This document shows, piece after piece, positions 8,933 to 25,577 of a stretch of DNA of 41,921 bases. The notes below the pieces were generated by a model, which worked only from the letters and a program-made list of their open reading frames with translations, was not told the origin of the DNA and searched no databases. Source of the stretch: Candidatus Omnitrophota bacterium (GTDB taxonomy: Bacteria > Omnitrophota > Gorgyraeia > Zapsychrales > Fredricksoniimonadaceae); the NCBI GenBank assembly GCA_015233145.1, contig JADFYI010000002.1, positions 2,574-44,494 of the forward strand. Direction: 5' to 3'. A program made the position numbers and the translations under genes. Position 1 is the first letter of the stretch. Each line of letters begins with the position of its first letter.

Positions 8933-10135
8933 TTATTGTTTGGAATTTGGGGAAAGCATGTCTTTGGCCAGATTCTGGCCTAAAGTATAGCAGGCCTTAA
9001 GCACATCATCTGCTGGCGCGCATTTGGCTTCCGGGCATGGAGAAATCAGTTTCCACGGTCCTTTTTGCGAGAAATCCTTGAGCCTTGAGAGGGGCGAAGC
9101 GCTCCAGCTGAAAGAGCCGAACAGCCCCAAAGAACGTCCGTGCAATCCGGTGTTCTCCAGAAGCTCAAGCAATCCATTCATGAGCGGAAAAATTTTGCCA
9201 TTATAGGTACAGCTTCCCAGAACCAGGGCTTTGTGGACCCATATTTCGCTTAAAATAAATGACGCGTGAGTTTTTGAGACATTAAAAATTTGCGTTTCCT
9301 TGACTCCGTTTTCAGTGAGCCCCTGGCCAACCGCCTCAGCCATTTTTTCCGTGTGACCATACATTGATGCGTAAGCAATGACAGCCCCGGGCTTTGTTTC
9401 TTGACGGCTCCAGCCTGAATAAAGATTGATAATGCGCTGCGGGGCCTCACGATAAACAGGGCCGTGTGTGGAGGCCAGGATTTTGATAGGGAGCGGTTTT
9501 ATTTTCTCAATGGCCTTTTGCACCGGCAGGCAATATTTACCGATCACATTGCTGAAATACCTGCGGATCTCAGGGGTAAGGGCCTCAATATCCACTTCAT
9601 CATCAAAAATTCCGCCGGGCAATGTCCCAAACCCTCCAAAAACATCACCTGAAAAAAGCGTCTGGGTTGTGCGTTCATAGGTCATCATGGTTTCCGGCCA
9701 ATGCGCCATGGGGGTCATGAAAAATTCAAACGTATGGCGGCCAAGCGAAATTTTTTCATTTTCCGTGATGATCTTGACAGGGTTTGCGATGTTATAAAAC
9801 CCTTTCAAAAGGCTGATGGTTTTTTCATTCCCCACAATGCACATTTTAGGATAACGGCCTGCCAAAGGGGCAATGGCGCCGGAATGGTCGGGCTCAATGT
9901 GATTAATGACAAGGTAATCGAGGGCTTTTCCGGCAAGAGTTGACTCAAGGCTCATCATGAAGTCATCCGAAAAATTTCTTTTCACAGCATCAATGAGCGC
10001 TGTTTTGTCATCGCGGATCAAATAAGAGTTGTAGGAAATACCCTGGGGGATTGGCCAAAGGGCTTCAAAAAGCTCTGTCTCAAAGTCATTGACGCCGATC
10101 CAGGAAATTTTTTCTGTAAGAGGTATTGTGGCCAT
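8933..10135 (-). CDS. Flavodiiron protein (A-type flavoprotein, FprA-like)
   Basis: Cytoplasmic oxygen or nitric-oxide reductase of 400 residues. The metallo-beta-lactamase-like domain has all diiron ligands: His79, Glu81, Asp83 and His84 (HIEPDH), His145, Asp164 (SGDVFGG) and His224 (STHGPVY). The flavodoxin domain from about residue 250 has the FMN phosphate loop YASMYGHTEKMAE and the ring-binding segments GSCTYNGKI and GSFSWSAS. No rubredoxin or flavin-reductase domain is attached, so electrons must come from a separate carrier. It is divergent, across an 81-base gap, from the KorAB-type ferredoxin oxidoreductase; a role in protecting that oxygen-sensitive enzyme is a reasonable inference. 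Confidence 0.93.
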   Translation of the reverse strand: MATIPLTEKISWIGVNDFETELFEALWPIPQGISYNSYLIRDDKTALIDAVKRNFSDDFMMSLESTLAGKALDYLVINHIEPDHSGAIAPLAGRYPKMCIVGNEKTISLLKGFYNIANPVKIITENEKISLGRHTFEFFMTPMAHWPETMMTYERTTQTLFSGDVFGGFGTLPGGIFDDEVDIEALTPEIRRYFSNVIGKYCLPVQKAIEKIKPLPIKILASTHGPVYREAPQRIINLYSGWSRQETKPGAVIAYASMYGHTEKMAEAVGQGLTENGVKETQIFNVSKTHASFILSEIWVHKALVLGSCTYNGKIFPLMNGLLELLENTGLHGRSLGLFGSFSWSASPLSRLKDFSQKGPWKLISPCPEAKCAPADDVLKACYTLGQNLAKDMLSPNSKQ

Positions 10136-10152
10136 AGGCTGAAAGGATTTCT

Positions 10153-10182
10153 TTGTTTAGGATACTAATTACTGGATATTAT
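10153..10182 (+). promoter_or_regulatory. Possible promoter for the 2-oxoacid oxidoreductase genes
   Basis: TTGTTT (10153-10158) and TATTAT (10177-10182) with an 18-base spacer, in the short gap between divergent genes and about 35 bases before the start at 10217. The -35 box is weak, so this is tentative. Confidence 0.35.
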
Positions 10183-10216
10183 AAAGCCAAAATCAATTTG
10201 ATGGATAAAAAATTTT

Positions 10217-11914
10217 ATGTCAAGCCAACGAACCTTTCAACATGATATTTCCGTTGTTTTGGCGGGAGAAGCAGGCCAGGGGATTGCCACAGTTGAACAG
10301 GTTTTCATGCGAACCCTTAAAACCGCGGGATATCATGTTTCTGCGACCAAAGAATACATGTCCCGTGTGCGCGGAGGAACAAATACAACCGAGATCCGCG
10401 TTGCCTCAAGGCCCATTGCAGCTTTTGTGGACCGGATTGATCTTCTTGTGGAGCTGAACCCCAAGGCTGTTGACCATGTCAAAAACAGGCTGTCTTCTTC
10501 GACAATTATTATTGCTGATGAGAACAGTGTCAAAGATTTGCCTCAGCTGGTGCTTACAGTCCCTTTTGCCAGGATCGCGCAGGAATTGGGCGACCGCATT
10601 TTGTCCAATACCATCGCTTTGGGGTTTTTGGCGGCCTTGTTTGATATTCCGTCGCAAGAACTGATTGACCAGGTCAGGCGTTCTTTTGGGAAAAAAGAAG
10701 GGGATATTATTGAAAAAAACTGTTCGGCAGCCCAACAAGGCTTTGACCTTGGCCGTCAGGCTGCTTTTAAGCATCAATTATCTGTTCAAATTGAACGCAA
10801 CCCCTCTGTCAAAAAAGAGATGATCGTAGGCGGCCATGAAGCCGCGGCCCTGGGGGCTGTTGTCGGCGGATGCAATTTTCTGGCCTCTTATCCGATGTCG
10901 CCTTCAACTGGAGTCCTCACATTCCTGGCCCAGCACGCGGATGAGTTTGGCATTGTTGTTGAGCAGGCCGAGGATGAAATTGCGGCCATGAATATGGGGC
11001 TTGGCAGCTGGTATGCCGGAGGCCGGGCCATGGTCACCACATCAGGCGGCGGTTTTTCTCTTATGACAGAAGGCTTAAGCCTGGCCGGGGCCATTGAATC
11101 ACCCATGGTCATTTATCTGGCCCAGAGGCCAGGGCCTGCCACCGGCCTTCCCACGCGGACAGAGCAGGGGGATTTGGACCTTGCCCTTTATGCCGGCCAT
11201 GGTGATTTCCCCAGAGCGATCTTCACTCCCGGGACACTCAAGGACATCTTTCTTTTGACAGCCATGGCCTTTGATCTTGCTGACCTCTATCAAGTCCCTG
11301 TTTTTATTTTAACCGACCAGGGGTTGCTTGATCTTTATCATACTCTTTCTGAGTTTCCAGCCGTAACTGTCAAGGCGTCAAACCATATTGTTAAGACAAC
11401 ACCTGATTATAAACGCTACAAATTTACAGACAGCGGGCTTTCACCGCGCGGTATCCCTGGTTTTGGCGAGGGAATTGTCTGTGTTGACAGTGACGAGCAC
11501 GATGAAGGCGGCTATATTACGGAAGACAGTCAAACCCGCAAAGCCATGGTTGACAAACGCATGAAAAAACATGGCTTGCTTCTTAAAGATGTTTTGGCGC
11601 CTCAATTTTTTGGGGAAAAAGATTATAAGAAACTGATCCTTGGCTGGGGGTCGAGCTTCCATGCAATTCGGGAGGCCATGGAACAACAGAGCGACCTGGA
11701 TACGGCTTTCTTGTATTTTCGACAGGTTTATCCGTTTCCTGATATGGCCATTCCCCTGATTGAAAAGGCAAAAGAAGTGGTTTGCGTCGAGAATAATGCT
11801 TCAGGCCAATTTGCCAAACTGTTAAGGCGGGAGACAGGCCTGGCTGTGCATAAAAAGATTTTAAAATATGACGGATCGCCATTTTCTGTGGAAGAGCTTG
11901 TCCGACAGATTTAA
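10217..11914 (+). CDS. korA: 2-oxoacid:ferredoxin oxidoreductase, fused gamma-alpha subunit (KorA type)
   Basis: Subunit of an enzyme that oxidatively decarboxylates 2-oxoacids to acyl-CoA, reducing ferredoxin. Residues about 10-190 are the gamma domain ([30 protein letters not shown]). Residues about 200-565 are the alpha domain, with [40 protein letters not shown] and [15 protein letters not shown], the last being typical of 2-oxoglutarate-type enzymes with fused gamma-alpha chains. The beta subunit follows 11 bases later. The exact substrate (2-oxoglutarate, pyruvate or a wider range) cannot be fixed from sequence alone. No ferredoxin domain is fused. Confidence 0.9.
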
Positions 11915-11925
11915 CGAGGTGTTTT

Positions 11926-12789
11926 ATGGCTAAAACAATTTACGATTTTCCTGAAGCGGAAATTTCCTGGTGCCCGGGATGCGGCAACTTCGGAATCCTG
12001 ACATTTCTTAAGGATGTTCTTGCCGAGGTTGCGCCGGATCCTCAAAAACTTGTTCTTGTCTCTGGCATTGGCCAGGCCGCCAAACTTCCGCAATATGTGA
12101 AAGGCCATTACTTTAACGGCCTTCACGGCCGCGCCCTTCCGCCAGCGACCGCAATCAAGGTTTCCAATCCAAGCCTCACTGTTGTTGTCACAAGCGGGGA
12201 TGGGGATATGTATGGTGAGGGCGGCAACCATTTTATCCATACCATCCGCCGGAATCCTGATATAACGGTTATTGTGCACAACAACATGGTTTATGGCCTC
12301 ACCAAGGGGCAGGCTTCGCCGACAAGTTCCAGGGGCTTTAAAACTCCGGTCCAGGCCAATGGCGTGATTTTAGAGCCTTTTAATCCGCTCGCGGTCGCCA
12401 TTGCGCTGGACGCGTCTTTCGTGGCCAGAATTTTTATGGGGTTTAAGGACCATTCCGAGGAAGTGCTTAAAAAAGCCATCCTCCATAAAGGCTTTTCTTT
12501 AGTTGATGTCTTTCAACCCTGCGTAACTTATAACAAATTGAATACTTACCAGTGGTTCCGGGAAAAGACATATTTCCTGGATTCTTCTCACGATCCTAAA
12601 AACCGTGCGCAGGCATTTCAAAAGGCCATTGAAACTGATAAATTTCCCTTGGGAATCTTTTATCAGCAGACGGAAAAACCTGTGTTCGAAGACCAACTCG
12701 TGGCTTATCGTGATGACAAAACTCCTCTTTTTGAAAGAAAACCCAACCTGGATCGTGTCCAAGCCATTATGCACAAGCTCCGCCAGTAA
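11926..12789 (+). CDS. korB: 2-oxoacid:ferredoxin oxidoreductase beta subunit (KorB type)
   Basis: Thiamine-diphosphate-binding subunit, 287 residues. The TPP motif runs from [14 protein letters not shown] to [12 protein letters not shown]. Cluster-ligand candidates are Cys16 and Cys19 (WCPGCGNFG) and Cys199 (QPCVTYN). The third classical ligand, Cys in G-I-G-C, is Gln50 here ([12 protein letters not shown]), so the [4Fe-4S] cluster may be three-Cys ligated or altered. The ribosome-binding site CGAGGTG precedes the ATG and the gene is co-transcribed with the alpha subunit. A small cysteine peptide and a terminator follow. Confidence 0.9.
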
Positions 12790-13115: not shown

Positions 13116-14768
13116 ATGTTCGCCCCAAAATTGTTCACCTGTCTTAAGGATTATTCCAAAGAAAAATTTATTTCCGATTGTGTTGCCGGCATTATCGTTG
13201 GAGTTGTTGCCATTCCCTTGGCCATTGCCTTTGCGATTGCCTCAGGGGTCTCTCCGGATAAGGGGCTTCTCACCGCGGTTATTGCGGGGTTTTTTATTTC
13301 CATGCTGGGTGGAAGTCGCGTCCAGATCGGAGGGCCGACAGGAGCCTTTGTTGTTATTGTTTACGGCATTGTCCAAAAACACGGGGTAGACGGCCTTATT
13401 ATTGCAACCTTGATGGCCGGAATCCTTCTTGTCATCATGGGCATTGCCCAGCTCGGCACAGCGGTAAAATTTATTCCGCATTCGGTGATCGTTGGCTTTA
13501 CCAGCGGCATTGCCGTGATAATTTTCTCCTCACAAGTGAAAGATTTCCTCGGGCTTCATATTGATAAAGTCCCTGCAGAATTTGTGGAAAAGTGGCGGAT
13601 TTTTATTCAACATATCGGAACACTGAATTATGATGCCTTTATCCTGGGGATTTTAACAATCCTTATTATTGCAATAGCCCCCCGAATTTTTAAAAAAGTC
13701 CCGGGAGCGCTTTTGGCCCTTATTGCTGTTTCCACCCTGACAGCATTCCTGCATCTTCCGGTGGAGACAATCGGGAGCCGTTTTGGAGAATTACCACATG
13801 CCTTGCCAATGCCTCATTTTCCTGTGATAGGGCTTGCAACAGTCAGGGAGTTGTTTCAACCTGCGCTGACCATTGCCCTTTTAGGAGCTATTGAATCGCT
13901 GTTATCAGCCATTGTTGCGGATGGCATGATTGGCGCCAGGCACCGCTCCAATACAGAGCTTATCGCTCAGGGAGTGGGGAATATCACTTCTGCTCTTTTT
14001 GGAGGCATTCCAGCAACAGGAGCAATCGCAAGAACTGTCACTAACATCAAAAACAATGGGCGGACTCCTGTGGCAGGCATGGTTCATGCAGTCACAGTCC
14101 TTTTGATCATGCTCTTTTTGGGGGCCTGGATCAAATACGTTCCTCTGGCATGCCTGGCAGGTATTTTGGTTGTGGTGGCCTATCACATGAGTGAATGGCG
14201 TTCGTTTTGCGAGCTTCTCAAATGGTCCCGGGGCGGCAGTTTGGTCTTGCTGGCAACATTTTTACTCACAGTTTTTGTGGACCTGAATGCCGCCATTGAA
14301 GTCGGGGTGGTGCTCGCTGCGTTCATCTTTATGAAACGCATGTCCGAGGCCACAAACATTAAAGTTGTTGCGCATGAATTTTCAGAAGATGCCAAAGGCG
14401 AAGATCGTCCTCTTTCAACATTTTCTATCCCCCAGGGCGTTGATATTTATGAAATTAACGGCCCGCTCTTTTTCGGGGCAGCTAACCGTTTCGATGAAAT
14501 CGACAGGCAGGTGAGCGATAAACCAAAAGTGAGGATACTGCGTTTCCGTGATGTGCCGTTGATTGATTCAACGGGCATGCATGCGCTTAAAGGCTTTTAC
14601 GATAAATGCAAACGGGACCGCATCCATTTAATTATTACAGGTCTCCATGTTCAACCCTTGAATGAAATGGTAAAATCCAACCTGTATGATTTGATAGGAG
14701 AGGCCAATGTTTTCTCCAGCATGAAAGAGGCCATCGGCCGGGCAGAGGAATTATTAAAAGTAAAATAA
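13116..14768 (+). CDS. SulP/SLC26-family anion transporter with STAS domain
   Basis: Integral inner-membrane transporter, 550 residues, with about 11-12 hydrophobic segments (residues 20-400) followed by a cytoplasmic STAS domain (about 445-545). Family motifs include the N-terminal AGIIVGVVAIPLAIAFAIASG and GPTGAFVVIVYGIV segments, the mid-region SALFGGIPATGAIARTVTNIK, and the STAS segment DVPLIDSTGMHALKGF with its conserved D-S-T. SulP members carry sulfate, bicarbonate (BicA) or other anions; the substrate is not readable here. Gene order, 25 bases before an ArsR regulator and upstream of a Hyf-like complex, suggests the transported ion is tied to that complex. Confidence 0.9.
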   Translation: MFAPKLFTCLKDYSKEKFISDCVAGIIVGVVAIPLAIAFAIASGVSPDKGLLTAVIAGFFISMLGGSRVQIGGPTGAFVVIVYGIVQKHGVDGLIIATLMAGILLVIMGIAQLGTAVKFIPHSVIVGFTSGIAVIIFSSQVKDFLGLHIDKVPAEFVEKWRIFIQHIGTLNYDAFILGILTILIIAIAPRIFKKVPGALLALIAVSTLTAFLHLPVETIGSRFGELPHALPMPHFPVIGLATVRELFQPALTIALLGAIESLLSAIVADGMIGARHRSNTELIAQGVGNITSALFGGIPATGAIARTVTNIKNNGRTPVAGMVHAVTVLLIMLFLGAWIKYVPLACLAGILVVVAYHMSEWRSFCELLKWSRGGSLVLLATFLLTVFVDLNAAIEVGVVLAAFIFMKRMSEATNIKVVAHEFSEDAKGEDRPLSTFSIPQGVDIYEINGPLFFGAANRFDEIDRQVSDKPKVRILRFRDVPLIDSTGMHALKGFYDKCKRDRIHLIITGLHVQPLNEMVKSNLYDLIGEANVFSSMKEAIGRAEELLKVK

Positions 14769-14793
14769 ACCGGCTTGAACGCGGGGTGAAAAA

Positions 14794-15129
14794 ATGAAAA
14801 ATACCGATGATATGGTTTTCAAGATTAAGGCAGACTTTTTAAGGGCGTTATCGCATCCTGTCCGCCTTCAGGTCATCGAATATTTAAAAGACGGCGAGGC
14901 CAGTGTGGGTAAACTTGTCCAGGATTTGGGCGTTGAACAATCCAGCTTGTCGAGGCATCTGGCCATCTTGAGGGAACTGGGGGTTCTTGAGGCCAGACAA
15001 GAAAAAAAGAATGTGTATTACAATTTACATGATCATGATATTTTTAAAGTATTAAGGCCCATTGCAGAACTTCTCAGAAAAAAATTAAAACGCGGCGAAA
15101 AGCTACTGGAAAGTTTGGCCAAAGAATAG
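14794..15129 (+). CDS. ArsR-family transcriptional regulator without metal-binding cysteines
   Basis: A 111-residue winged-helix protein: RALSHPVRLQVIEYL opening, recognition helix VEQSSLSRHLAILRELG and wing EARQEKKNVYYNL, all typical of ArsR/SmtB regulators. The classical metal motif ELCVC is replaced by V-E-Q-S-S and the protein has no cysteine at all, so it does not sense arsenic, cadmium or thiols through Cys. A basic, Lys-rich C-terminal helix follows. It sits between the SulP transporter and an EIIA-like regulator and most likely controls this operon; the signal is unknown. Confidence 0.85.
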   Translation: MKNTDDMVFKIKADFLRALSHPVRLQVIEYLKDGEASVGKLVQDLGVEQSSLSRHLAILRELGVLEARQEKKNVYYNLHDHDIFKVLRPIAELLRKKLKRGEKLLESLAKE

Positions 15130-15137
15130 GATAAAAG

Positions 15138-15821
15138 ATGCAGTTGACCTTTCGTGATATTGAAAAAGCGTTTGAAATCGAGGAAAGAAAGCTTTACCAG
15201 TGGCTGAATACCCTCGGGATGCCGGCTGTCCGCGCCAATGACCAGTATTATTTTAACTCTGTTGAAGTCCTGGAATGGGCTTTAAAAAACCGTATTCCGC
15301 TCACACCAGGGGCACTCAAGCTTTGTGAAAAAACGCGTATGGGGCAGGATGTGATTACTCCCGCATTGTTGCGCGGCGGAGTTTGTTTTGACCTTGAAGG
15401 CGAACGCCGCGAAGATGTCCTTGAGAAAGTCCTCGACCTTTTGCCGTTACCGGCTCATATTCCTCTGGCACCTTTAAAAGATATGCTTTTATCCCGGGAA
15501 CAGGCTGGCACAACCGGTATAGGCAACGGCATTGCCATTCCTCATGTCAAGCATCCTGTTGTCCTGGCCGGGATGGAACCTGTGGTAGGGCTTTTCTTCC
15601 TTAAAAGGTCTGTTGATTTTTCAGCCCCTGACAAAGAAAGGGTGCACACCTTGTTTGTCATTTTATCTTCGTCATTCAAAGGGCACTTATCTTTATTGTC
15701 ACGGCTGGCATTTTGCCTGCAGGATGAGCGCGTTCAATCAGTGTTAAAGCATCGTGTGAACCGTGAAGAAATCCTTGCCACATTTCAGGTGGCAGAGTCA
15801 AAAACAGTACGGACAGCGTAA
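15138..15821 (+). CDS. HTH-PTS EIIA(Ntr) fusion regulator
   Basis: A 227-residue cytoplasmic protein. Residues 1-55 look like an excisionase/MerR-like helix-turn-helix (TFRDIEKAFEIEERKLYQWL, then YYFNSVEVLEWAL). Residues about 75-220 are a PTS EIIA type-2 domain of the nitrogen-PTS class: GTTGIGNGIAIPHVKHP with the phosphorylatable His136, then VGLFFLKRSVDFSAPD and VHTLFVILSS. EIIA(Ntr) proteins regulate potassium, nitrogen and transport processes by phosphorylation rather than sugar uptake. The stop overlaps the start of the next gene (TAATG), so it is made together with the membrane complex and may tune it. Confidence 0.85.
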   Translation: MQLTFRDIEKAFEIEERKLYQWLNTLGMPAVRANDQYYFNSVEVLEWALKNRIPLTPGALKLCEKTRMGQDVITPALLRGGVCFDLEGERREDVLEKVLDLLPLPAHIPLAPLKDMLLSREQAGTTGIGNGIAIPHVKHPVVLAGMEPVVGLFFLKRSVDFSAPDKERVHTLFVILSSSFKGHLSLLSRLAFCLQDERVQSVLKHRVNREEILATFQVAESKTVRTA

Positions 15822-17647
15822 TGAATAAAACACTCGAATTTTTGTGGCATGTTCCTTTTGGGGATTTCTCCCTGAGGCTTGATCCTTTAAGCGTTTTATT
15901 CCTGACAGCCATTTTTATTCTTGTTTTATGCGCAGGAATTTACGGGGTGGGGTATATGCGCTCCTATCAGGGGGGAAAAAGTCTGGGCCTCCACATTTTT
16001 TTTTATATACTCCTGGCCCTGGCCCTGATTGTCGTTGTGACTGCCAATAATGTGATCCTGTTTCTGGGCGCATGGGAAGTGCTGGCGATTTCTGTTTATT
16101 TCCTGATTGTGTTCCAGGATGAAAAGCCATCCGTGCGAAGAGCCGCGTTCCTTTACCTGATTGCCGCCCATTGCGGAACGTTTTGCCTTTTTTTGATGTT
16201 TTTCTTAATGGCTCATGCGGCTGGTTCCATGAACTTTGATGTGATGGCCCAGACAAACTTTTCTCCGGTGATTGCAGGAACGATTTTCTTTCTGGCGCTT
16301 TTGGGATTTGGAGTCAAGGCCGGTATTTTCCCCATGCATATCTGGCTGCCGTATGCGCATCCTGCAGCGCCGTCGCATGTGTCAGCGCTTTTGTCAGGTG
16401 TCGCAATCAAGACAGGAATTTATGGGATTTGCCGTATTCTATGGATTATCGGCGTCCTTCCGGACTGGTGCGGGTATGTTCTTTTGATTTTAGGAATTGT
16501 GTCAGGGGTCATGGGCGTTTTGTATGCTTTAGGACAGCATGAACTCAAAAAACTTTTGGCCTATCACAGCATTGAAAATATCGGCATTATTGTCCTGGGC
16601 CTTGGCATTGGATTGTTGGGGCGTAACCACCAGATGCCGTTTCTTGCAGTTCTTGGATTTGGCGGTGCGTTGCTCCATGTCTTTAATCATTCTGTTTTTA
16701 AGGGCCTGTTGTTCCTGGGCGCAGGTGCAGTCATTCAAAAAACACATACCGGAGAGATGGATCATCTGGGAGGCCTGGCCAAAACCATGCCCCTGGTAAG
16801 CGGGCTTTTTCTGATTGGAGCCCTGGCCATCTGCGGACTGCCGTTATTGAACGGATTCATCAGTGAATTTATTATCTTTTTTGGGCTTTTTCACGGGCTT
16901 TTAGGGCTTCCGTTGCAAGGTGCTGTCCTGTGCGCGCTTGGAATTTTATCACTGGCCTTGATGGGTGCTTTGGCCCTGGCCTGTTTTACTAAGGTTTACG
17001 GGACTGTGTTTTTAGGGGAACCGCGCAGGCCAACCCTGCCCACAGAAATGCCCATAAAAACTTCGCCATGGATGATTGTTCCCATGGTTATTCTCGCAGG
17101 CCTGTGTCTGTGGGTTGGCCTTAATCCTCAACCCATGGCCGGACTCGCTTTGGGGGGTGGAAAGTATTTAATTCACGCAGCGCCATTGTCAGTTATTGAT
17201 TTGAGCGAAATTTTTATCCCCTTATCAGTGGTCGTGAGTTGCACGTTTATTCTTATTCTCTTAATGGCTTTCCTGGCCGTGGCGCGTTGGGCCCTGTTAA
17301 GGTCGCGGCCCAGGCCCATCTCGGAAACCTGGAACTGCGGGTTTTCACATGTGACCCCGCGGTTTCAGTACACCTCTTCTTCGTTTGCCAGGCCGATCAC
17401 TGATTTTGTAAAAGCCCTTTTGCTTTTAAACCGCCACGGTGGGAAGGTGTCAGGGGAGTTTCCTGGAAAAATGCAGATATCTTCTTCAGTCCATGACGCC
17501 TCTGAAGAGAGGATGTTTCGACCTGTGTTTCTTGGCTTGACCCGTTTTTCCAAGAAACTTGAAGAGACCCGGATCCGTTATACACAGATATATCTCATGT
17601 ACATCTTTTTCTTTTTGATATTTTTACTGGCCTGGAAATTAAAATGA
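15821..17647 (+). CDS. hyfB: Proton-conducting membrane subunit HyfB/NuoL-like
   Basis: Antiporter-like membrane subunit of a group-4-hydrogenase-related complex, 608 residues and about 14-16 helices. Residues important for ion translocation are kept: Glu86 (GAWEVLA), Lys166 (GFGVKAG), Lys197 (SGVAIKTGIYG) and the LAYHSIENIGII segment with NHSVFKGLLFL. The C-terminal extension has the W-N-C-G and FQYTSSSFARP pattern seen in HyfB/HycC. So the pump part appears functional. It starts the six-gene membrane-complex block and overlaps the next gene by 4 bases. Confidence 0.9.
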   Translation: MNKTLEFLWHVPFGDFSLRLDPLSVLFLTAIFILVLCAGIYGVGYMRSYQGGKSLGLHIFFYILLALALIVVVTANNVILFLGAWEVLAISVYFLIVFQDEKPSVRRAAFLYLIAAHCGTFCLFLMFFLMAHAAGSMNFDVMAQTNFSPVIAGTIFFLALLGFGVKAGIFPMHIWLPYAHPAAPSHVSALLSGVAIKTGIYGICRILWIIGVLPDWCGYVLLILGIVSGVMGVLYALGQHELKKLLAYHSIENIGIIVLGLGIGLLGRNHQMPFLAVLGFGGALLHVFNHSVFKGLLFLGAGAVIQKTHTGEMDHLGGLAKTMPLVSGLFLIGALAICGLPLLNGFISEFIIFFGLFHGLLGLPLQGAVLCALGILSLALMGALALACFTKVYGTVFLGEPRRPTLPTEMPIKTSPWMIVPMVILAGLCLWVGLNPQPMAGLALGGGKYLIHAAPLSVIDLSEIFIPLSVVVSCTFILILLMAFLAVARWALLRSRPRPISETWNCGFSHVTPRFQYTSSSFARPITDFVKALLLLNRHGGKVSGEFPGKMQISSSVHDASEERMFRPVFLGLTRFSKKLEETRIRYTQIYLMYIFFFLIFLLAWKLK

Positions 17648-18567
17648 TTATGATATTGTCCATTCTATGTCATTGGCTGATCGTCCTTCTTCTGGCGCCT
17701 TTCTTTATCGGGGTCATTGCCAAGGTTAAGGCATTTTTTAGCGGCAAGGTTGGCCCATCAGTATTCCAACCCTTTTTTGATTTGATAAAACTTTTCAACA
17801 AAGGCGCTGTCTACAGCAAAACCACAACATGGATCTTTCGCGCAGCACCCATGGTCCTTTTGGCATCGGTCCTGATTTTATCTTTGGAAATTCCTTTGGG
17901 GGTGTTCAAAGCGCCGGTACAATTTTCAGGAGATATTTTTTTTCTGGCCTATCTCCTGGCCCTGGCCAGGTTTTTTATGATTGCCGCAGCCCTGGATACG
18001 GGGTTTAGCATGGAGGGCATGGGGGCCAGCCGTGAGGCGTTTTTTTCTTGCTTGTCAGAGCTTGCCTTGTTTATGAATTTCATCACGCTTGCGCTTTTGG
18101 CGCACAGCCTTTCATTATCTCACATGATCGGGGCGGATATTCCCATGTCCTGGAGCCATGTGGGGCCAGCGCTTCTTTTAATTGTGGCCAGCTTTTTTAT
18201 TGTGCTTCTTACGGAAAACTATCGTATCCCTATTGATGATCCTGATACGCATCTTGAATTAACCATGATCCATGAAGTCATGGTCCTAGACCACAGCGGA
18301 GTGGACCTGGCGTATGTATCCTATGCCTCGGCTATAAAATTTCTTATATTCTCCGGCATTCTTGTTCCCATCATTATTCCTTTTCGAACAGGGGATCTTG
18401 TGATGGATATGCTGATTTTTCTTGGCGGCATGCTGGGGCTGGCCGTGTGTGTCGGAATTGTTGAGTCGTCAATGGCGCGTTTAAGGCTTAATCGTGTCAG
18501 AAATTTTTTACTGATTGCCTTTGCCCTGGCATTCTTTGGGTTTATCGTTACGATGTGGAGAGGATGA
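17644..18567 (+). CDS. hyfC: Membrane subunit HyfC/HycD-like (NuoH family)
   Basis: Membrane anchor subunit, 307 residues, about eight helices. Family marks are GPSVFQPFFDLIKLFNKG after helix 1, the acidic loop RIPIDDPDTHLELTMIHEVM, and conserved Glu/Asp positions that in NuoH/HycD form the link between the soluble module and the ion path. Overlaps hyfB by 4 bases (ATGA) and is followed 4 bases later by hyfE. Nothing unusual in length. Confidence 0.88.
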   Translation: MIMILSILCHWLIVLLLAPFFIGVIAKVKAFFSGKVGPSVFQPFFDLIKLFNKGAVYSKTTTWIFRAAPMVLLASVLILSLEIPLGVFKAPVQFSGDIFFLAYLLALARFFMIAAALDTGFSMEGMGASREAFFSCLSELALFMNFITLALLAHSLSLSHMIGADIPMSWSHVGPALLLIVASFFIVLLTENYRIPIDDPDTHLELTMIHEVMVLDHSGVDLAYVSYASAIKFLIFSGILVPIIIPFRTGDLVMDMLIFLGGMLGLAVCVGIVESSMARLRLNRVRNFLLIAFALAFFGFIVTMWRG

Positions 18568-18571
18568 CCGC

Positions 18572-19225
18572 ATGACCACCTGGATTGATGCAAGCTGCAT
18601 TTTCATTGTTTTTCTTTCGCTGGGAATTCTTGCGACATACCGGATTGTCGGCATTATCAAGATTTTTGCAGCCCAGTCTTTTGTTTTGGGATTGGTCCTG
18701 ATATTCTTACACGCTCACAACCTTTCCACCCGCGATATCGTTATTTCACTCGGTACCATGGGGCTTAAGGGTGTTTTGGTCCCTTATATTTTATTTTGGG
18801 CCATCCGCCATGTTTCCATGCGTTCAGAAATCAAGCCTGTGATCGGGTTTGGGACTTCAATTGTTTCCGGAGCGCTTTTGATTGCCGGGGCGTTCTGGAT
18901 TTCGTTATCCTTGAAATTACCGGGCAAGCCTGTTTCTGACCTGATTTTACCGTGTTCTCTGGCCACAGTGCTTTTGGGTTTTATGATCATGGTGACACGC
19001 ACACGCGCTGTCACCCAGGTTTTAGGGTACCTGATCATGGAAAACGGCATTTTTCTTTTTGCCTTGTCTTTATTTGACGTCATGCCGGCCATGATTGAGC
19101 TGGGCATCCTGCTCGATATTTTTGTGGCTGTCTTTATCATGGCCATCATTGTTAACAACATCAATGAAGAGTTTGAGCAGGCTCCGGCGTCGGTAAGCCG
19201 GTCCAAAATGGGAGAGACGTTTTGA
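18572..19225 (+). CDS. hyfE: Membrane subunit HyfE-like
   Basis: A 217-residue protein with seven or so hydrophobic helices. The motif RTRAVTQVLGYLIMENGIFLFAL matches HyfE, whose N-terminal half is NuoK-like. The ATG at 18572 is taken because GGAGAGGA lies about 7 bases upstream and just after the hyfC stop; a start at 18515 would run 50 bases into hyfC. Hyf-type complexes have this subunit while the smaller Ech and Hyc types do not, so the complex is Hyf-like. Confidence 0.82.
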   Translation: MTTWIDASCIFIVFLSLGILATYRIVGIIKIFAAQSFVLGLVLIFLHAHNLSTRDIVISLGTMGLKGVLVPYILFWAIRHVSMRSEIKPVIGFGTSIVSGALLIAGAFWISLSLKLPGKPVSDLILPCSLATVLLGFMIMVTRTRAVTQVLGYLIMENGIFLFALSLFDVMPAMIELGILLDIFVAVFIMAIIVNNINEEFEQAPASVSRSKMGETF

Positions 19226-20634
19226 TGTTATCAATTCTGATTATGATTCCTTTTTTCTGCGCCTTATGCGCGTTTCTTCCTTTGACGAAACAGTTTCGTT
19301 ATAAATTATTTTTTGTTGTTTCCTTGATTCATGCCACGATTGTGCTTTTATTCTGGCAGCATTTACCTTCACCGGAATTTAACGGTTTCCTGGAACTGGA
19401 TCAACTGGGGCTGATTGTGCTTTCCATTATCAGCGTCCTTTACCTTTTTGTGTCTGTTTTTATGGCTGGTTATTTTGAACATGAACAGCGCAGTAACCGG
19501 ACAGTGACCGCGTGTTTATTGGCCCTGTTATCCACAATGACGCTGGCCTCGGCGAGCCGGCACATGGGGCTTTCATGGGTCGCTGTTGAAACTTCAACGC
19601 TTTTCAGCGCGCCTTTGATCAGCTTCCACCGTAACCAGGAAAGCCTGGAAGCCACCTGGAAATATCTTCTGATTTGTTCTGTCGGGATTGCGCTGGCCCT
19701 GATGGGAACTTTTTTTCTTGCCATTGCCGCGCATGATGTCCATACGCTCCTTTTGCCAACGCTTCTCAATAATGCTTCATCGTTATCCGTGAACTGGTTA
19801 AAGCTCAGCGTCATATTTTTACTGGTGGGATATGGCTGTAAAATGGGGCTTGCCCCAACGCACAGCTGGAAACCCGAAGCCTATGGCCAGGCCACAGGGA
19901 TGGTGGCTGTTTTAATGGCCGGGGCTGTCACACAGTGTTCTTTTCTGGCTCTTATGCGTGTCGGCCAAATTTGCAGTAAAACCGGTTTAACTGATTTTTA
20001 TTCCTCCATTTTGATTTTAACGGGTCTTTTATCGCTGGGTGTTGCTGCCATTTTTATTCTAAGTGAAAGAAACATTAAAAGGGCCTTTGCCTATTCTTCC
20101 ATTGAACACATGGGCCTTTTGGTTTTGGGGCTTGGCCTGGGTGGGGTTGGGGTTTTTGGCGCTGTTTTTCATATGATCAATAATGCCCTGGCCAAAGTGA
20201 TCATGTTTTTAACCGCCGGGTCCATTGCCCAAAAATACGGCTCGTCACGTGTTGATGAAGTACGCGGGGTTATCCATGTTTATCCTGTGACAGGAATGTT
20301 CCTGATTGTGGCATTGTTGGCCGGGACCGGGATGTTTCCCTTTGCCACATTTCACAGTGAGCTTATGATTCTCAATGCCGCTGTGATTTCAAAGCACTAT
20401 ATTCTTTGCGTGTTTGCTGTTGTTTGCCTGGGCCTCATGTTTATCGGCATGGCCCGAATTATTTTAGATGTTGTTTTTGGCCAGCCGACCCAGCCTGTTT
20501 TAGCCAAAAAAGAAAATTTCTTTATGAATTTTCCGATCGGGATTGCTGCACTTCTTTTAATCGGCCTTGGTTTATGGGTGCCAACGTTTTTGGAAAAAGT
20601 GATCCGTCATGCTGCATTGTTAACAGGTTTTTAG
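19222..20634 (+). CDS. hyfF: Second antiporter-like subunit HyfF (NuoN/L family)
   Basis: A 470-residue membrane protein with about 13 helices. Glu122 (WVAVETSTLF) and Lys206 (GYGCKMGLAP) of the antiporter-like fold are present, and the AYSSIEHMGLLVLGLGL stretch is canonical. The broken-helix region after the first lysine is diverged: the usual W-L-P-D-A-H-S-E-A-P is W-K-P-E-A-Y-G-Q-A-T here, which may affect its half-channel. It overlaps hyfE by 4 bases and is followed by the large subunit after 9 bases. Confidence 0.87.
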   Translation: MMLSILIMIPFFCALCAFLPLTKQFRYKLFFVVSLIHATIVLLFWQHLPSPEFNGFLELDQLGLIVLSIISVLYLFVSVFMAGYFEHEQRSNRTVTACLLALLSTMTLASASRHMGLSWVAVETSTLFSAPLISFHRNQESLEATWKYLLICSVGIALALMGTFFLAIAAHDVHTLLLPTLLNNASSLSVNWLKLSVIFLLVGYGCKMGLAPTHSWKPEAYGQATGMVAVLMAGAVTQCSFLALMRVGQICSKTGLTDFYSSILILTGLLSLGVAAIFILSERNIKRAFAYSSIEHMGLLVLGLGLGGVGVFGAVFHMINNALAKVIMFLTAGSIAQKYGSSRVDEVRGVIHVYPVTGMFLIVALLAGTGMFPFATFHSELMILNAAVISKHYILCVFAVVCLGLMFIGMARIILDVVFGQPTQPVLAKKENFFMNFPIGIAALLLIGLGLWVPTFLEKVIRHAALLTGF

Positions 20635-20643
20635 AGGCAAGTC

Positions 20644-22155
20644 ATGGAATTGTTTAACAACGCCAATATTGCTTTAACAGATATTCCTCTGGTCACAGCC
20701 AAAGAGTTTCGTGCTGAAATTATCCGCCGCTCTCGCGGTGAGGCAAGGCTTGTCAACCTTTTTGGGGCCTTGGAGCCTGACGGTGGCGTCCGTTTATTTG
20801 CCATCCTTGGCTTTGATGAAGAGGCAGTGCTTCAAATCTTATCGACAAAGATTCCGGAAAATTATCCCCAGTTTGAATCTCTGGCCCGCGAATTATTCCA
20901 GGCCCAGGCGTTTGAGCGGGAGATTGCGGAGCAGTGGGCCATCACCCCCCAGGGGCATCCGTGGCTTAAGCCACTCCGGCGTCATCCTAATTACCGCGGC
21001 GTTACGGATATCTGGCAAAATGCTTCTCCAGGAAGCAGTCCTGCTCAATATCCTTTTTATTCTGTTGATGGCGAAGAAGTGCATGAAGTAGGTGTCGGGC
21101 CGGTGCATGCCGGTATTATTGAGCCGGGGCACTTCAGGTTTCAGTGCCATGGTGAAGAAATCCTTCATTTGGAAATACAACTGGGCTATCAGCACCGTGG
21201 TATGGAACGCTTGATGTGCGGCCAGGATTTAAAACGCACAGCCCTTTTAAGCGAATCCATTGCAGGCGATACTTCCATTGGCCATTCGATTGCCTTTTGT
21301 GAAGTTGCAGAATCCCTGTCAGGTTGTGTTATTTCTGCCCGGGCACAGGCAATACGTGCCGTGGGTCTTGAACTGGAACGTTTGGCGAATCATGTGGGAG
21401 ATTTGGGAGCTTTGGGCCTGGATGCCGGATTCTTGCCGACCAGTGCGTATTTCGGGCGCATGCGGGGAGATTATCTGAATCTCCTTTTAACAATAACCGG
21501 CAACCGTTTTGGCAAGGGCCTGTGCCGGCCAGGCGGTGTTTTATTTGATATCGACGTAGCTATGGCCGAGGATCTTCTAAGAAAGCTTAAACAGTATAAA
21601 AAAGAATTCGACCAGGTGAGTGACCTTCTTTTTTCAAGGCCTTCGGTCCTTGCGCGTTTTGAGGGCACGGGAACCATTTCCATGAAAACCGCAAAGAAAA
21701 TCGGACTTGTGGGGCCAGCCAGCCGCGCCAGCCAACTGGAACGCGATGTCAGGATTAATTATCCGTCAGGCATATGGCAGTTCCATCATATCCCGATTTC
21801 TCTTGCCGCCACAGGCGATGTTTACGCCAGGGCTATTGTGCGGCGGCAGGAAGTGACGCGGTCGATTGAATTTTTACTCAAGATTTTACCGTCATTGCCT
21901 AAGGGCGAACTATTAACCACGCTCCCGGCCATGAAACCTGAAACCCTCGCCATTGCCATGGTGGAAGGGTGGCGGGGGGAAATTATGCATATTGGTATAA
22001 CAGATCACCAGGGTAGTTTTACACGTTATAAAATCAAAGACCCGTCATTTCATAACTGGTTTGGATTAAGCCTGGCTGTGAGAAACCAGGATATTTCTGA
22101 TTTTCCTTTATGCAACAAAAGTTTCAATTTATCTTATTGCGGACATGATTTGTAG
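20644..22155 (+). CDS. Hydrogenase-like large subunit lacking [NiFe] ligands (NuoC-NuoD-type fusion)
   Basis: A 503-residue soluble subunit homologous to HyfG/HycE: residues 1-115 are a NuoC-like domain (ending TPQGHPWLKPLRRHPNY) and about 145-503 a NuoD/large-subunit domain (GYQHRGMERLMCGQD at 181-195). The two CxxC pairs that bind nickel in true hydrogenases are absent. The first site reads S-I-A-G-D-T-S-I-G-H (205-214) instead of R-x-C-G-x-C. The second reads D-P-S-F-H-N-W (466-472) instead of D-P-C-x-x-C. So it cannot hold a standard [NiFe] centre and belongs with energy-converting hydrogenase-related (Ehr) or complex-I-like proteins. A 142-base gap with a hairpin separates it from the small subunit. 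Confidence 0.88.
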   Translation: MELFNNANIALTDIPLVTAKEFRAEIIRRSRGEARLVNLFGALEPDGGVRLFAILGFDEEAVLQILSTKIPENYPQFESLARELFQAQAFEREIAEQWAITPQGHPWLKPLRRHPNYRGVTDIWQNASPGSSPAQYPFYSVDGEEVHEVGVGPVHAGIIEPGHFRFQCHGEEILHLEIQLGYQHRGMERLMCGQDLKRTALLSESIAGDTSIGHSIAFCEVAESLSGCVISARAQAIRAVGLELERLANHVGDLGALGLDAGFLPTSAYFGRMRGDYLNLLLTITGNRFGKGLCRPGGVLFDIDVAMAEDLLRKLKQYKKEFDQVSDLLFSRPSVLARFEGTGTISMKTAKKIGLVGPASRASQLERDVRINYPSGIWQFHHIPISLAATGDVYARAIVRRQEVTRSIEFLLKILPSLPKGELLTTLPAMKPETLAIAMVEGWRGEIMHIGITDHQGSFTRYKIKDPSFHNWFGLSLAVRNQDISDFPLCNKSFNLSYCGHDL

Positions 22156-22161
22156 GTGGGG

Positions 22162-22269
22162 CAGAGCCGGAAGAATGTGTCTGATGCGAATCGTGAAGGC
22201 TTTACAGCAAGATTATATTATTAGAAAAAAGCCGTAACGCTGAGCATCGGACACATTCTGCAGGCTCTG
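22162..22269. repeat. Long inverted repeat between large- and small-subunit genes
   Basis: Arms 22162-22187 and 22244-22269 are complementary over 26 positions with 2 mismatches and 1 G-T pair; a second stem (GGCTTT 22198-22203 with AAAGCC 22228-22233) lies inside. The whole 142-base intergenic space in an otherwise tightly packed operon is filled by this element. It could be an RNA hairpin that sets relative subunit dose or mRNA stability, or an inserted palindromic repeat. No U-tract follows, so it does not look like a simple terminator. Confidence 0.75.
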
Positions 22270-22297
22270 TATTCTCGGGGGAATAAAGGATAAATTT

Positions 22298-22981
22298 ATG
22301 TTAAAGATCATCCAAACACGTTTTAAACAGGGTTGCCGAACCCTTGCTTTTCCCAAAGGCAAACGACCCGCGCTTCCTGCGCGTTATCGCGGACGCCCCA
22401 TTATTGCAGGCCAGGGAGAGGCGCTCGATCTAGGTTCAATCACATTTGCCCCTGACACCGCTATAGAGTATTCCCAGGATTTTCAGATGGCCGTATCTCT
22501 GCGCAAAGATCTTGTTCTAAAGGGGAGCGAACTCACACTGGCCTGTGTGTTGAACCACGAAATGTTAAAAATTTTCGGCCGTTCTCTTAAACTGCGCCAG
22601 GTTTCTGCAGGAGGATGTAATGCCTGCGAATTAGACCTCAATGTCCTTAACACACCTGTTTTTGACTTGAGCCGTTTTGGTATCCAGTTTGTGGCTTCAC
22701 CCCGTCACGCTGACGGGATTGTGGTCACAGGCCCGATTTCACGCAACATGACAGAAGCGCTCCTCAAAACTTACGAGGCTGTGGCATCACCTAAAATTGT
22801 CATTGCCCTGGGAAGCTGCGCGATTTCCGGCGGAATTTTCGCAAACACTCCGGAGGCCACCAACGGCCTGGAAACGCTTATTCCTGTCGACCTGTTTATT
22901 CCTGGTTGCCCGCCGCATCCTTTGACAACCTTAGACGGCTTATTAAGACTTTTGGGAAGGATAAAAAAGAACAGCCTGTAA
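22298..22981 (+). CDS. Hydrogenase-like small subunit (NuoB/HyfI) fused to a cysteine-less HyfH-like N-terminus
   Basis: A 227-residue protein. Residues about 100-225 are the small-subunit fold with the full proximal [4Fe-4S] ligand set: Cys107, Cys110 (GGCNACELD), Cys174 (LGSCAISGG) and Cys204 (IPGCPPHP). Residues 1-80 resemble the polyferredoxin subunit HyfH/HycF/NuoI: a MLKIIQTRFKQG opening, LPARYRGRPII just before where the first CxxCxxC motif should be, and IEYSQDFQMAVSLRKDL where the post-cluster tail should be. Both cluster motifs are gone; only Cys13 and Cys83 remain. The ribosome-binding site AAAGGA supports the ATG at 22298. It ends the complex operon. Confidence 0.82.
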   Translation: MLKIIQTRFKQGCRTLAFPKGKRPALPARYRGRPIIAGQGEALDLGSITFAPDTAIEYSQDFQMAVSLRKDLVLKGSELTLACVLNHEMLKIFGRSLKLRQVSAGGCNACELDLNVLNTPVFDLSRFGIQFVASPRHADGIVVTGPISRNMTEALLKTYEAVASPKIVIALGSCAISGGIFANTPEATNGLETLIPVDLFIPGCPPHPLTTLDGLLRLLGRIKKNSL

Positions 22982-22998
22982 TGGAATAATAAAAAATA

Positions 22999-24486
22999 AT
23001 GCTTTTTAACTCCCTTCATTTTTTGATTTTCTTTCCCCTTGTCGTTATTCTCTTTTTCTTTTTACCTTTTCGTTTCAGGCTCATTTTTCTCCTTGCGGCC
23101 AGTTATTACTTTTACATGGCCTGGAAACCTGTTTACATCCTGATTATTATTGTCTCAACCCTGGGGACATGGGCGAGCGGCCTTTGGATGGAGCGGTTCC
23201 CGGCCCGGCGGTCCTGGGCCCTGGCGTTCAGTTTTCTGGTCAACCTGGGCATGCTTTTTTTCTTTAAATATTTTAATTTCCTGAATCATTCCCTGGCTGG
23301 CCTAGCCCAGGCCCTTCATGGCTCATGGGGCATTCCTGATTTTTCCATACTCCTTCCGATTGCCATTTCATTCCACACGTTTCAAGCCTTGAGTTACTCG
23401 ATCGACCTTTATCGAGGAGAAATAAAAGCTGAAAAAAATCTCCTTTTGTTTGCGGTCTTCACTTCATTTTTCCCCCAGCTGGTGGCAGGCCCCATTGAAA
23501 GGACTAAAAACCTCCTGCATCAATTTGAAGAAAAACAGTCTTTCGATGCCAAACGCATGGCCAGCGGATTAAAACTCATGGCCTGGGGCATGTTTAAAAA
23601 AGTGGTGATCGCCGACCGCTTTGCCGTGGCTGTTAACAGTGTCTATAACCATCCTGCCGATTACCAGGGCCCGGCGCTCATGGCTGCCACAATATTTTTT
23701 GCCTTTCAAATTTACTGCGATTTTTCAGGCTACTCTGATATTGCCGTGGGTTCTGCGGAAGTCATGGGCTTTCGCCTCATGACCAACTTTAAACGGCCGT
23801 ACCTTGCTCAAAACATTGTGGAATTCTGGCGGCGCTGGCATATATCGCTTTCCACATGGTTTCGGGATTATGTTTATATTTCCCTGGGCGGAAACCGGGT
23901 GTCCCGCTGGCGGCATTTCTTAAACCTTTTTATCACTTTTTTTATCAGCGGTATCTGGCATGGCGCCAACTGGACTTTTGCGCTGTGGGGGACTTTACAT
24001 GGATTATTTATGGTGTTATTTCTGGCAACCGAGGATTTAAGAAAAAAAGTTTCAGATTCCCTGAGGCTCTCACAATATCCCAGGCTCAGTGGAATATTCA
24101 GCATTGTCTTAACATTTGCCTTTGTCAGCTTTGCCTGGATTTTTTTCAGGGCCAACACGGTTCATGATGCTTTTTATATCGTAAGAAATCTTTTTAAAGG
24201 ATTTGATACTGTTTTCTCCTTGATCGGACAGGGGAATATCATGGCGGCTTTAAATGCCCTGCGCGCTGGCGGGTTCGGCATAGGCAAATCAGGCATGGCC
24301 ATTGTTTTGAGCGCCCTTTTCATCCTTTACGCTGTCCAGTATTTTCAGGAAAGCGGCGAGGGGATAAGAATCCGGCTGGAAAAACTTGGGCCTGTGGTGC
24401 GCTGGTTTCTTTATTATGCCCTTGTTTTTTCCATGCTGGGGCTTGGCGTTTTCGGCAGCAACAAATTCATCTATTTCCAATTCTAG
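22999..24486 (+). CDS. MBOAT-family O-acyltransferase (AlgI/DltB-like)
   Basis: Integral membrane enzyme, 495 residues, about ten helices. It transfers acyl groups (often acetyl) across the membrane to a cell-surface polymer. Key features are the core stretch EFWRRWHISLSTWFRDYVYI (His281) and the catalytic-type His321 in SGIWHGANWTF, both standard for AlgI-like MBOATs, plus FFPQLVAGPIERTKNL. The next gene, 2 bases after the stop, is an SGNH-like protein, the usual partner for the final transfer step. The acceptor polymer is not known; a glycoside-hydrolase-like gene follows. Confidence 0.9.
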   Translation: MLFNSLHFLIFFPLVVILFFFLPFRFRLIFLLAASYYFYMAWKPVYILIIIVSTLGTWASGLWMERFPARRSWALAFSFLVNLGMLFFFKYFNFLNHSLAGLAQALHGSWGIPDFSILLPIAISFHTFQALSYSIDLYRGEIKAEKNLLLFAVFTSFFPQLVAGPIERTKNLLHQFEEKQSFDAKRMASGLKLMAWGMFKKVVIADRFAVAVNSVYNHPADYQGPALMAATIFFAFQIYCDFSGYSDIAVGSAEVMGFRLMTNFKRPYLAQNIVEFWRRWHISLSTWFRDYVYISLGGNRVSRWRHFLNLFITFFISGIWHGANWTFALWGTLHGLFMVLFLATEDLRKKVSDSLRLSQYPRLSGIFSIVLTFAFVSFAWIFFRANTVHDAFYIVRNLFKGFDTVFSLIGQGNIMAALNALRAGGFGIGKSGMAIVLSALFILYAVQYFQESGEGIRIRLEKLGPVVRWFLYYALVFSMLGLGVFGSNKFIYFQF

Positions 24487-24488
24487 CC

Positions 24489-25577
24489 ATGAAGAAATTT
24501 TGTTTTAAAATCCTTATTTTGGTTTTACCTGTCCTCCTCGGTGTAGCGGCTGTCAACCTGTGGGTGGATCCTGCCAAGCTTTTTTCAAAAGATTATACCG
24601 AAGCCGCTCAAATCCTGCTCAAAGGCAGCAACCTTCTCCTTTTTTCCAATATTGATGAAAGGCTGATGCAGCAATCTTACATCACAAACCTTACCAGGCC
24701 CAAGGACGTTGTTATTCTAGGGTCGAGCCGGTCCATGGGCCTGGGCAAAGAACTTTTTCCAGGAAAAAATATTTTTAACAGTTCTGTTTCAAGCGCAACG
24801 TTAACAGATCTTTTGGCGATATTTTATCTTTATTATGAAAAAAGTATTGTCCCTAAAACCATGGTATTGTCTCTCGACCCATGGATTTTTAATGGCCAAC
24901 GCCATGACCGTTCTTATGATTTTATTAAAAAAGCCTACCCTCAAATGCTGGCACGGATGGGGCATGTGGCGTCCCTCAAAAAAGAATGGGGCAGGGAAGT
25001 TTTTGAAAGGTATCAGGAACTATTTTCATTCTCTTATTTTCAGGAATCACTCGTGATTTTAATTAAAAATCAATTTAAGCCGCCAAGAACTTTTTTTAAG
25101 GCCACCCCCCAAACAAACGACGATAAATTTTATGTTATTTCCAACGACGGCAGCCTGACGTACCACAATAAGGCCCCCATTCAAACGCCGCAACGAATGC
25201 AAAAATTAATTGACCAGCAAAAAGAAACCCGTGAGGAACTTTGCAGCTTAACCGGATTTGAAGCTATTGACCCTGAGGCTGTCAGCATCCTGGAAGATTT
25301 TTTGAGCTTCATTCAAGGTTTATCATCGCAAACGATTATCTATCTTCCGCCTTACCATCCATTTGCTTATAATACCATCATGACAGAGTCCCCAAAGGCT
25401 CTTGTCATAAAAGCAGAAAACATTATTCGTAACATGGCCCAACGCAAAGGCATAAAAGTTTACGGCTCGTATAATCCGGAACGTTTGGGTCTGGACAAAG
25501 ACTGTTTTTATGATGCCATCCATTTAAAAAGGCCGTGTTACAAGGAATCGTTCCGTGAAGCCATTGAAAGGCACTGA
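24489..25577 (+). CDS. Membrane-anchored SGNH-hydrolase-like protein, MBOAT partner
   Basis: A 362-residue protein with an N-terminal membrane helix (residues 5-25) and a periplasmic domain. The opening LGSSRSMGLG (GSSR at 78-81) provides the nucleophile-type Ser, and a C-terminal DAIH (Asp342, His345) gives the Asp-x-x-His pair, as in SGNH/GDSL and AlgX/AlgJ/DltD-like proteins. Together with the MBOAT gene directly upstream this suggests O-acetylation of a secreted or envelope polysaccharide. Overall identity to named families looks low, so the exact family is left open. It overlaps an in-frame extension of the next gene only if an upstream start is used. Confidence 0.7.
   Translation: MKKFCFKILILVLPVLLGVAAVNLWVDPAKLFSKDYTEAAQILLKGSNLLLFSNIDERLMQQSYITNLTRPKDVVILGSSRSMGLGKELFPGKNIFNSSVSSATLTDLLAIFYLYYEKSIVPKTMVLSLDPWIFNGQRHDRSYDFIKKAYPQMLARMGHVASLKKEWGREVFERYQELFSFSYFQESLVILIKNQFKPPRTFFKATPQTNDDKFYVISNDGSLTYHNKAPIQTPQRMQKLIDQQKETREELCSLTGFEAIDPEAVSILEDFLSFIQGLSSQTIIYLPPYHPFAYNTIMTESPKALVIKAENIIRNMAQRKGIKVYGSYNPERLGLDKDCFYDAIHLKRPCYKESFREAIERH

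Follow-up and report, generated by a model that had tools for sequence, protein, structure and literature searches.

In the current view a fixed chain of Fe-S clusters in the peripheral arm powers complex I and its relatives, and in NDH a soluble ferredoxin can feed the NuoI/NuoB-type arm. In 2[4Fe-4S] ferredoxins cluster A is bound by the first three cysteines of motif 1 together with the fourth of motif 2, and cluster B by the first three of motif 2 together with the fourth of motif 1. From the arrangement N6a, N6b, N2 in complex I we take cluster A to correspond to N6a, the outer cluster, and cluster B to N6b, which adjoins N2. According to the structure of formate hydrogenlyase, the amphipathic helix and the loop at the N-terminus of HycF are shared across the superfamily (PMC9474812), and for the bacterial Ehr (energy-converting hydrogenase-related) complexes the function is stated as unknown (PMC10284858). 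Searches of an open-access library gave no report of cluster-less forms of such subunits.

The window analysed here is the whole stretch of 41,921 nucleotides from an Omnitrophota genome of 1.81 Mb in 58 contigs. Its ORF at 22298-22981 encodes 227 amino acids, with coordinates and strand (forward) as first described, and is a HyfH-HyfI fusion, the electron-relay subunit of an Ehr-type, complex-I-related ion pump. It is the last gene in the order SulP, ArsR, PtsN-like, HyfB, HyfC, HyfE, HyfF, HyfG and HyfHI (13116-22981), in which adjacent genes from SulP to HyfG overlap or lie at most 25 bp apart and a spacer of 142 bp separates HyfG from HyfHI. The features are as follows.

13116..14768, forward strand: transporter of the SulP family with a STAS domain; DauA (C4-dicarboxylate) is the best family model, below cut-off; 25 bp before arsR
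14794..15129, forward strand: ArsR-family regulator, 8 bp upstream of the PtsN-like gene
15138..15821, forward strand: PtsN-like protein (EIIA-Ntr) with N-terminal extension and two conserved His; opens the conserved Ehr block
15821..17647, forward strand: hyfB, antiporter-like subunit, by family matches
17644..18567, forward strand: hyfC (NuoH-like), conserved acidic residues retained
18566..19225, forward strand: hyfE, hydrogenase 4 membrane subunit, start approximate
19222..20634, forward strand: hyfF, antiporter-like subunit, by family matches
20644..22155, forward strand: large subunit of the hyfG type, a NuoC/NuoD fusion lacking Ni ligands; CGIC is replaced by AGDTSIGH, and NLSYCGHDL stands at the C-terminal end
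22298..22981, forward strand: fusion of hyfH and hyfI; no clusters in the HyfH part, proximal [4Fe-4S] ligands C107, C110, C174 and C204 in the HyfI part
22298..22408, forward strand: remaining front part of HyfH (residues 1-37) with its amphipathic helix and the extended loop RFKQG..T..P..LP.RYRGRP
22409..22459, forward strand: ferredoxin-core scar (residues 38-54), shortened by two deletions compared with two-cluster relatives
22460..22561, forward strand: remaining rear part of HyfH (residues 55-88), comprising AIEYSQDFQMAVSLRKDLV and the linker that joins it to the small subunit

The spacer between hyfG and hyfHI contains a long palindromic repeat (22160-22270; RNA fold of -55.6 kcal/mol, z -6.3). 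Four other copies in the genome share 85-92% identity with it and a fifth shares 69%, which suggests a REP/MITE-type repeat that was inserted in the operon. An MBOAT O-acyltransferase gene begins 17 bp past hyfHI and is followed by a second gene (22999-25577); relatives have other genes at this place, so the MBOAT gene is probably unrelated to the complex. On the other side, 326 bp upstream of SulP, a flavodiiron protein on the opposite strand stands beside a 2-oxoacid:ferredoxin oxidoreductase alpha/beta pair (8933-12789), an arrangement not seen beside the other Ehr operons examined. KorAB was rejected as a conserved electron donor because among the loci examined it lies upstream in the window alone.

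The first-pass annotation had proposed that a HyfH domain stripped of both cluster motifs is fused here to a small subunit that keeps Cys107, 110, 174 and 204, and both parts of this description hold. Cysteines occur in the fusion only at positions 13, 83, 107, 110, 174 and 204, the last four being the proximal (N2-like) ligands that mark the HyfI/NuoB small subunit. Pfam assigns Oxidored_q6 to residues 107-217 and finds no match to the Fer4 families; in the two-cluster relative L089 many Fer4 families are matched. That the motifs are missing through an assembly or annotation artefact, or that the N-terminus is not HyfH at all, is next to impossible. Such a reading could draw on the single window sequence, which NCBIfam HycF/NuoI models match only weakly (residues 51-85, 51-78 and 8-37). 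It is refuted by the profile-profile comparison of seven cluster-less with 13 two-cluster N-termini, which gave a probability of 99.9% and an E value of 2.7e-31 with 43% identity over the aligned columns, and by the absence of a CxxCxxCxxxC motif from all six frames of 22100-22600, so that no motif is concealed by a frameshift. The two gaps in this alignment fall exactly over the motifs: one of about 23 residues spans motif 1 and the linker after it, and one of seven residues covers the second half of motif 2. In E. coli NuoI the cluster-less profile again finds both flanks, including LPxRYRGR, so an N-terminus unrelated to HyfH could be ruled out and the homology that the first-pass annotation had wanted checked against HyfH/NuoI profiles is upheld; the N-terminal region of L089 aligns with HycF along almost all of its length (E 7.2e-17). 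The first N-terminal helix is present in the AlphaFold model of the window protein (mean pLDDT 89) and in that of L089 (91). The Foldseek matches listed for both models are all small-subunit chains (HycG, NuoB and relatives), with HycG as the best structural match for the small-subunit part of the window protein, so this search bears on the small subunit. By homology, residues 1-88 thus are a real HyfH/HycF/NuoI domain in which both [4Fe-4S] sites are gone. The framework is present and none of the eight ligands is (0/8), and the HyfH part is accordingly best described as a derived homologue and not as a functional two-cluster ferredoxin subunit. We regard this anatomy and homology of the fusion as practically certain.

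We aligned 124 HyfH-HyfI fusions and scored their ligands. All eight ferredoxin ligands are present in 77 homologues, 19 are partly eroded and 28 are cluster-less, every one of the latter from Omnitrophota. Within the cluster-less set 24 sequences have 0/8 ligands, so the state is no assembly error, and four show vestiges such as CLFNExxxxxC. The four proximal cysteines are retained in 124/124 sequences, including all 28 cluster-less ones. A survey for intermediates had been suggested by the first-pass annotation, and the 19 partly eroded homologues are such one-cluster forms: in 19/19 of them cluster B is intact (0/76 ligands lost), against 57/76 lost for cluster A. In one of the sequences (L133) the third cysteine of motif 2 had been misplaced by the alignment and was scored as present from its sequence CLFCAEC. 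The partly eroded set comprises Elusimicrobia, Geobacter argillaceus, Deltaproteobacteria-labelled MAGs, an Auribacterota MAG, a Planctomycetaceae MAG and Omnitrophota, and the outer-first ligand loss spans at least three tree-supported changes. Alignment and tree together indicate that the built-in ferredoxin lost its clusters stepwise, the outer one (N6a-like, by the complex I arrangement) first, with the rest of the machine retained. In the tree the cluster-less forms fall into two clades with different scars; a single cluster-less clade has a slightly better likelihood (AU p 0.57), so that two independent total losses could not be taken as settled and one origin of the cluster-less state is possible. 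The fusion to the small subunit, which had also been pointed out, is real and is not peculiar to this locus. It is usual in the Ehr family across many phyla, and as all 80 relatives kept from genome contigs are fused, it was discarded as a novelty.

The first-pass annotation had further considered the cluster loss to be in line with a large subunit lacking nickel ligands, and this connection did not hold. The CxxC pairs that bind Ni in group 4 [NiFe] hydrogenases and hydrogenase 4 are absent from the large subunit of the window, which together with a Hyf-type membrane arm (HyfB, C, E, F) gives the locus two Ehr traits. The hallmark AGDTxIGH and NLSYxGHDL is conserved over the family and common to cluster-bearing Ehr relatives, so the complex was already without nickel when its clusters were lost. 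Judged by the family alignment, the lack of Ni ligands is ordinary for Ehr and not tied to the missing clusters. We then took the charged, Cys or Tyr positions with a conservation of at least 90% among two-cluster Ehr and compared them in the cluster-less forms. The latter retain 54/57 positions in HyfG, 20/22 in HyfB, 22/25 in HyfC and 7/7 in HyfE; HyfF drifts more than the other subunits (14/20), and several of the changes are conservative, e.g. D to E or R to K. This persistence of charged and catalytic residues in the large subunit and membrane arm argues against a decaying pseudocomplex. That the complex is non-functional and heading for loss could be read from the deletion of the cluster motifs in steps and from at least one relative with a broken copy (an in-frame stop in genome G022, locus L014). 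We consider it very improbable, since the operons are intact, catalytic and ion-path residues are conserved across many genera and the small-subunit part shows 75% mean pairwise identity among the 28 cluster-less sequences. Judged by what is conserved, the electron inlet is the part that was lost from the Ehr complex, and the cluster loss is its unusual feature, fusion and missing Ni ligands being ordinary for Ehr. HyfG residue 285 (21496-21498) is Cys in 90% of two-cluster Ehr and Thr or Ser in most cluster-less forms, a replacement possibly linked to the loss of the ferredoxin domain. Three cluster-less loci carry a second HyfBCEF set after HyfHI without a second HyfG/HyfI (L031:5794-10851, L037:1461-6434 and L039:13748-18720), and the partly eroded locus L188 has a second set with its own PtsN-like gene; it is as if two membrane arms shared one peripheral module.

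We propose as the best explanation an Ehr pump with a shortened chain, in which a soluble carrier delivers electrons directly to the proximal cluster (probability roughly 0.5). What was deleted is the part holding two [4Fe-4S] clusters, and what was kept are both ends that clamp the subunit to the complex in homologues. Redox-driven ion pumping would continue through an internal chain in which one cluster is left of three. A mobile carrier, in the simplest case a soluble ferredoxin of the lost-core fold, would dock in the vacated site and pass electrons straight to the proximal cluster, from where they would move on to an acceptor in the large-subunit pocket, and the resulting ion gradient could energise the co-encoded SulP transporter. 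An electron entry that moves inward predicts the outer-first order of loss. The first-pass annotation had left the choice between a different electron route and none; the proximal ligands, invariant in 124/124 sequences, favour a shorter route rather than none at all. A soluble ferredoxin-like protein encoded in the genome (L194) also speaks for entry from a soluble carrier, and the retained charged and polar positions and the tight packing of the genes from SulP to hyfG count for the explanation as well. The greater drift of HyfF counts against this explanation. So does the lack of a conserved electron-donor gene beside cluster-less operons, where the recurrent neighbours are SulP and a malic enzyme.

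On another contig of the same genome (L051:5338-12805) cytochrome bd genes precede an operon for a group 4 [NiFe] hydrogenase whose Ni ligands are intact (RICGIC, DPCISC); the operon includes a two-cluster ferredoxin subunit (L051:12389-12805). The organism therefore shows no general loss of such subunits and can make them, which we count for the shortened chain. The same gene is a candidate for a different solution, in which a ferredoxin-type subunit encoded elsewhere stably occupies the vacated site, where the fused domain retains its flanking ends only, and three clusters remain. This is quite unlikely, as the candidate sits in its own hydrogenase operon and its HyfH-type ends would compete with those of the fusion, and no recurrent extra ferredoxin subunit gene was found near cluster-less operons.

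The neighbourhood of the operons was compared for loci with at least 2.6 kb of sequence upstream of HyfB. SulP lies directly upstream in 10/16 cluster-less and in 0/77 other loci (Fisher p 1e-9, a test that ignores shared ancestry), and ORF calling added the cluster-less loci L033 and L170. The link lies within one lineage, and with shared ancestry it reflects at most a few events despite the p value. In the same comparison an ACT-domain malic enzyme was found upstream in 4/16 cluster-less loci (L034:14156-15619, L043:3924-5366, L046:2350-3792 and L173, two of them also with SulP) and in none of the others. The window protein at 13116-14768 is by its family match a SulP member nearer to DauA than to BicA, with 514 bits for the DauA model against a curated cut-off of 614, so that the DauA assignment stays below the cut-off; that malic enzyme and a dicarboxylate transporter would fit together metabolically is only a lead. 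This linkage is what a redox-free role with SulP, the main rival to the shortened chain, would account for. By analogy, HyfBCEF, coupled to SulP, would conduct ions or act as an antiporter, with the peripheral subunits as a regulatory cap, similar to the NuoL-like DabB2 that operates with a CO2-hydrating partner (PMC13144422), and the extra HyfBCEF sets lacking a second HyfG/HyfI would fit. We hold it to be somewhat unlikely, as it leaves the invariant cluster ligands unexplained: these cysteines and the nearly complete set of charged HyfG residues would be needless for a non-redox cap. Moreover, cluster-less operons without SulP also occur, and the SulP link is restricted to one lineage. A more specific version, that the machine dispensed with electron input and was converted into the ion-gradient partner of the SulP anion transporter, with pocket and remaining cluster as sensor or gate and with a second membrane arm in some relatives, is unlikely.

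The homologues are a natural series in which the entry subunit has two clusters, one or none; the ligands of the same cluster are always lost first, and the pump is conserved. This amounts to a natural deletion experiment on the requirements of the pump and raises the question of how the cluster-less pump is powered now, and the linked SulP and malic enzyme genes offer a handle on Ehr function.

Compared with known systems, the window is most like Ehr, with which it shares the Hyf-type membrane arm, the nickel-less large subunit and the hydrogenase-type proximal cluster ligands (PMC6349859, PMC10284858). The Ehr relatives recovered here also have the order PtsN-like, HyfB, C, E, F, G and fused HyfHI; they mostly possess eight ferredoxin ligands, whereas the window clade has none and often SulP in the operon. 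The helix and loop of the window protein are of the type seen in HycF of E. coli formate hydrogenlyase (7z0s/7z0t; PMC9474812), which differs from the window in that HycF and HycG are two proteins, with two clusters and one respectively, and HycE binds NiFe. NuoI/NuoB of complex I and of chloroplast and cyanobacterial NDH are homologous in subunits and flanking regions, but of their clusters N6a, N6b and N2 the first two sites are absent in the window protein, and the proximal cysteines form a tandem pair there and show hydrogenase-type spacing here. The DAB complex (DabA/DabB), with a NuoL-like subunit and a non-NADH partner in transport-linked chemistry, is the analogy for a redox-free role; in contrast to it the window retains the full HyfBCEFGHI, and SulP is a separate transporter, linked to the complex by gene position.
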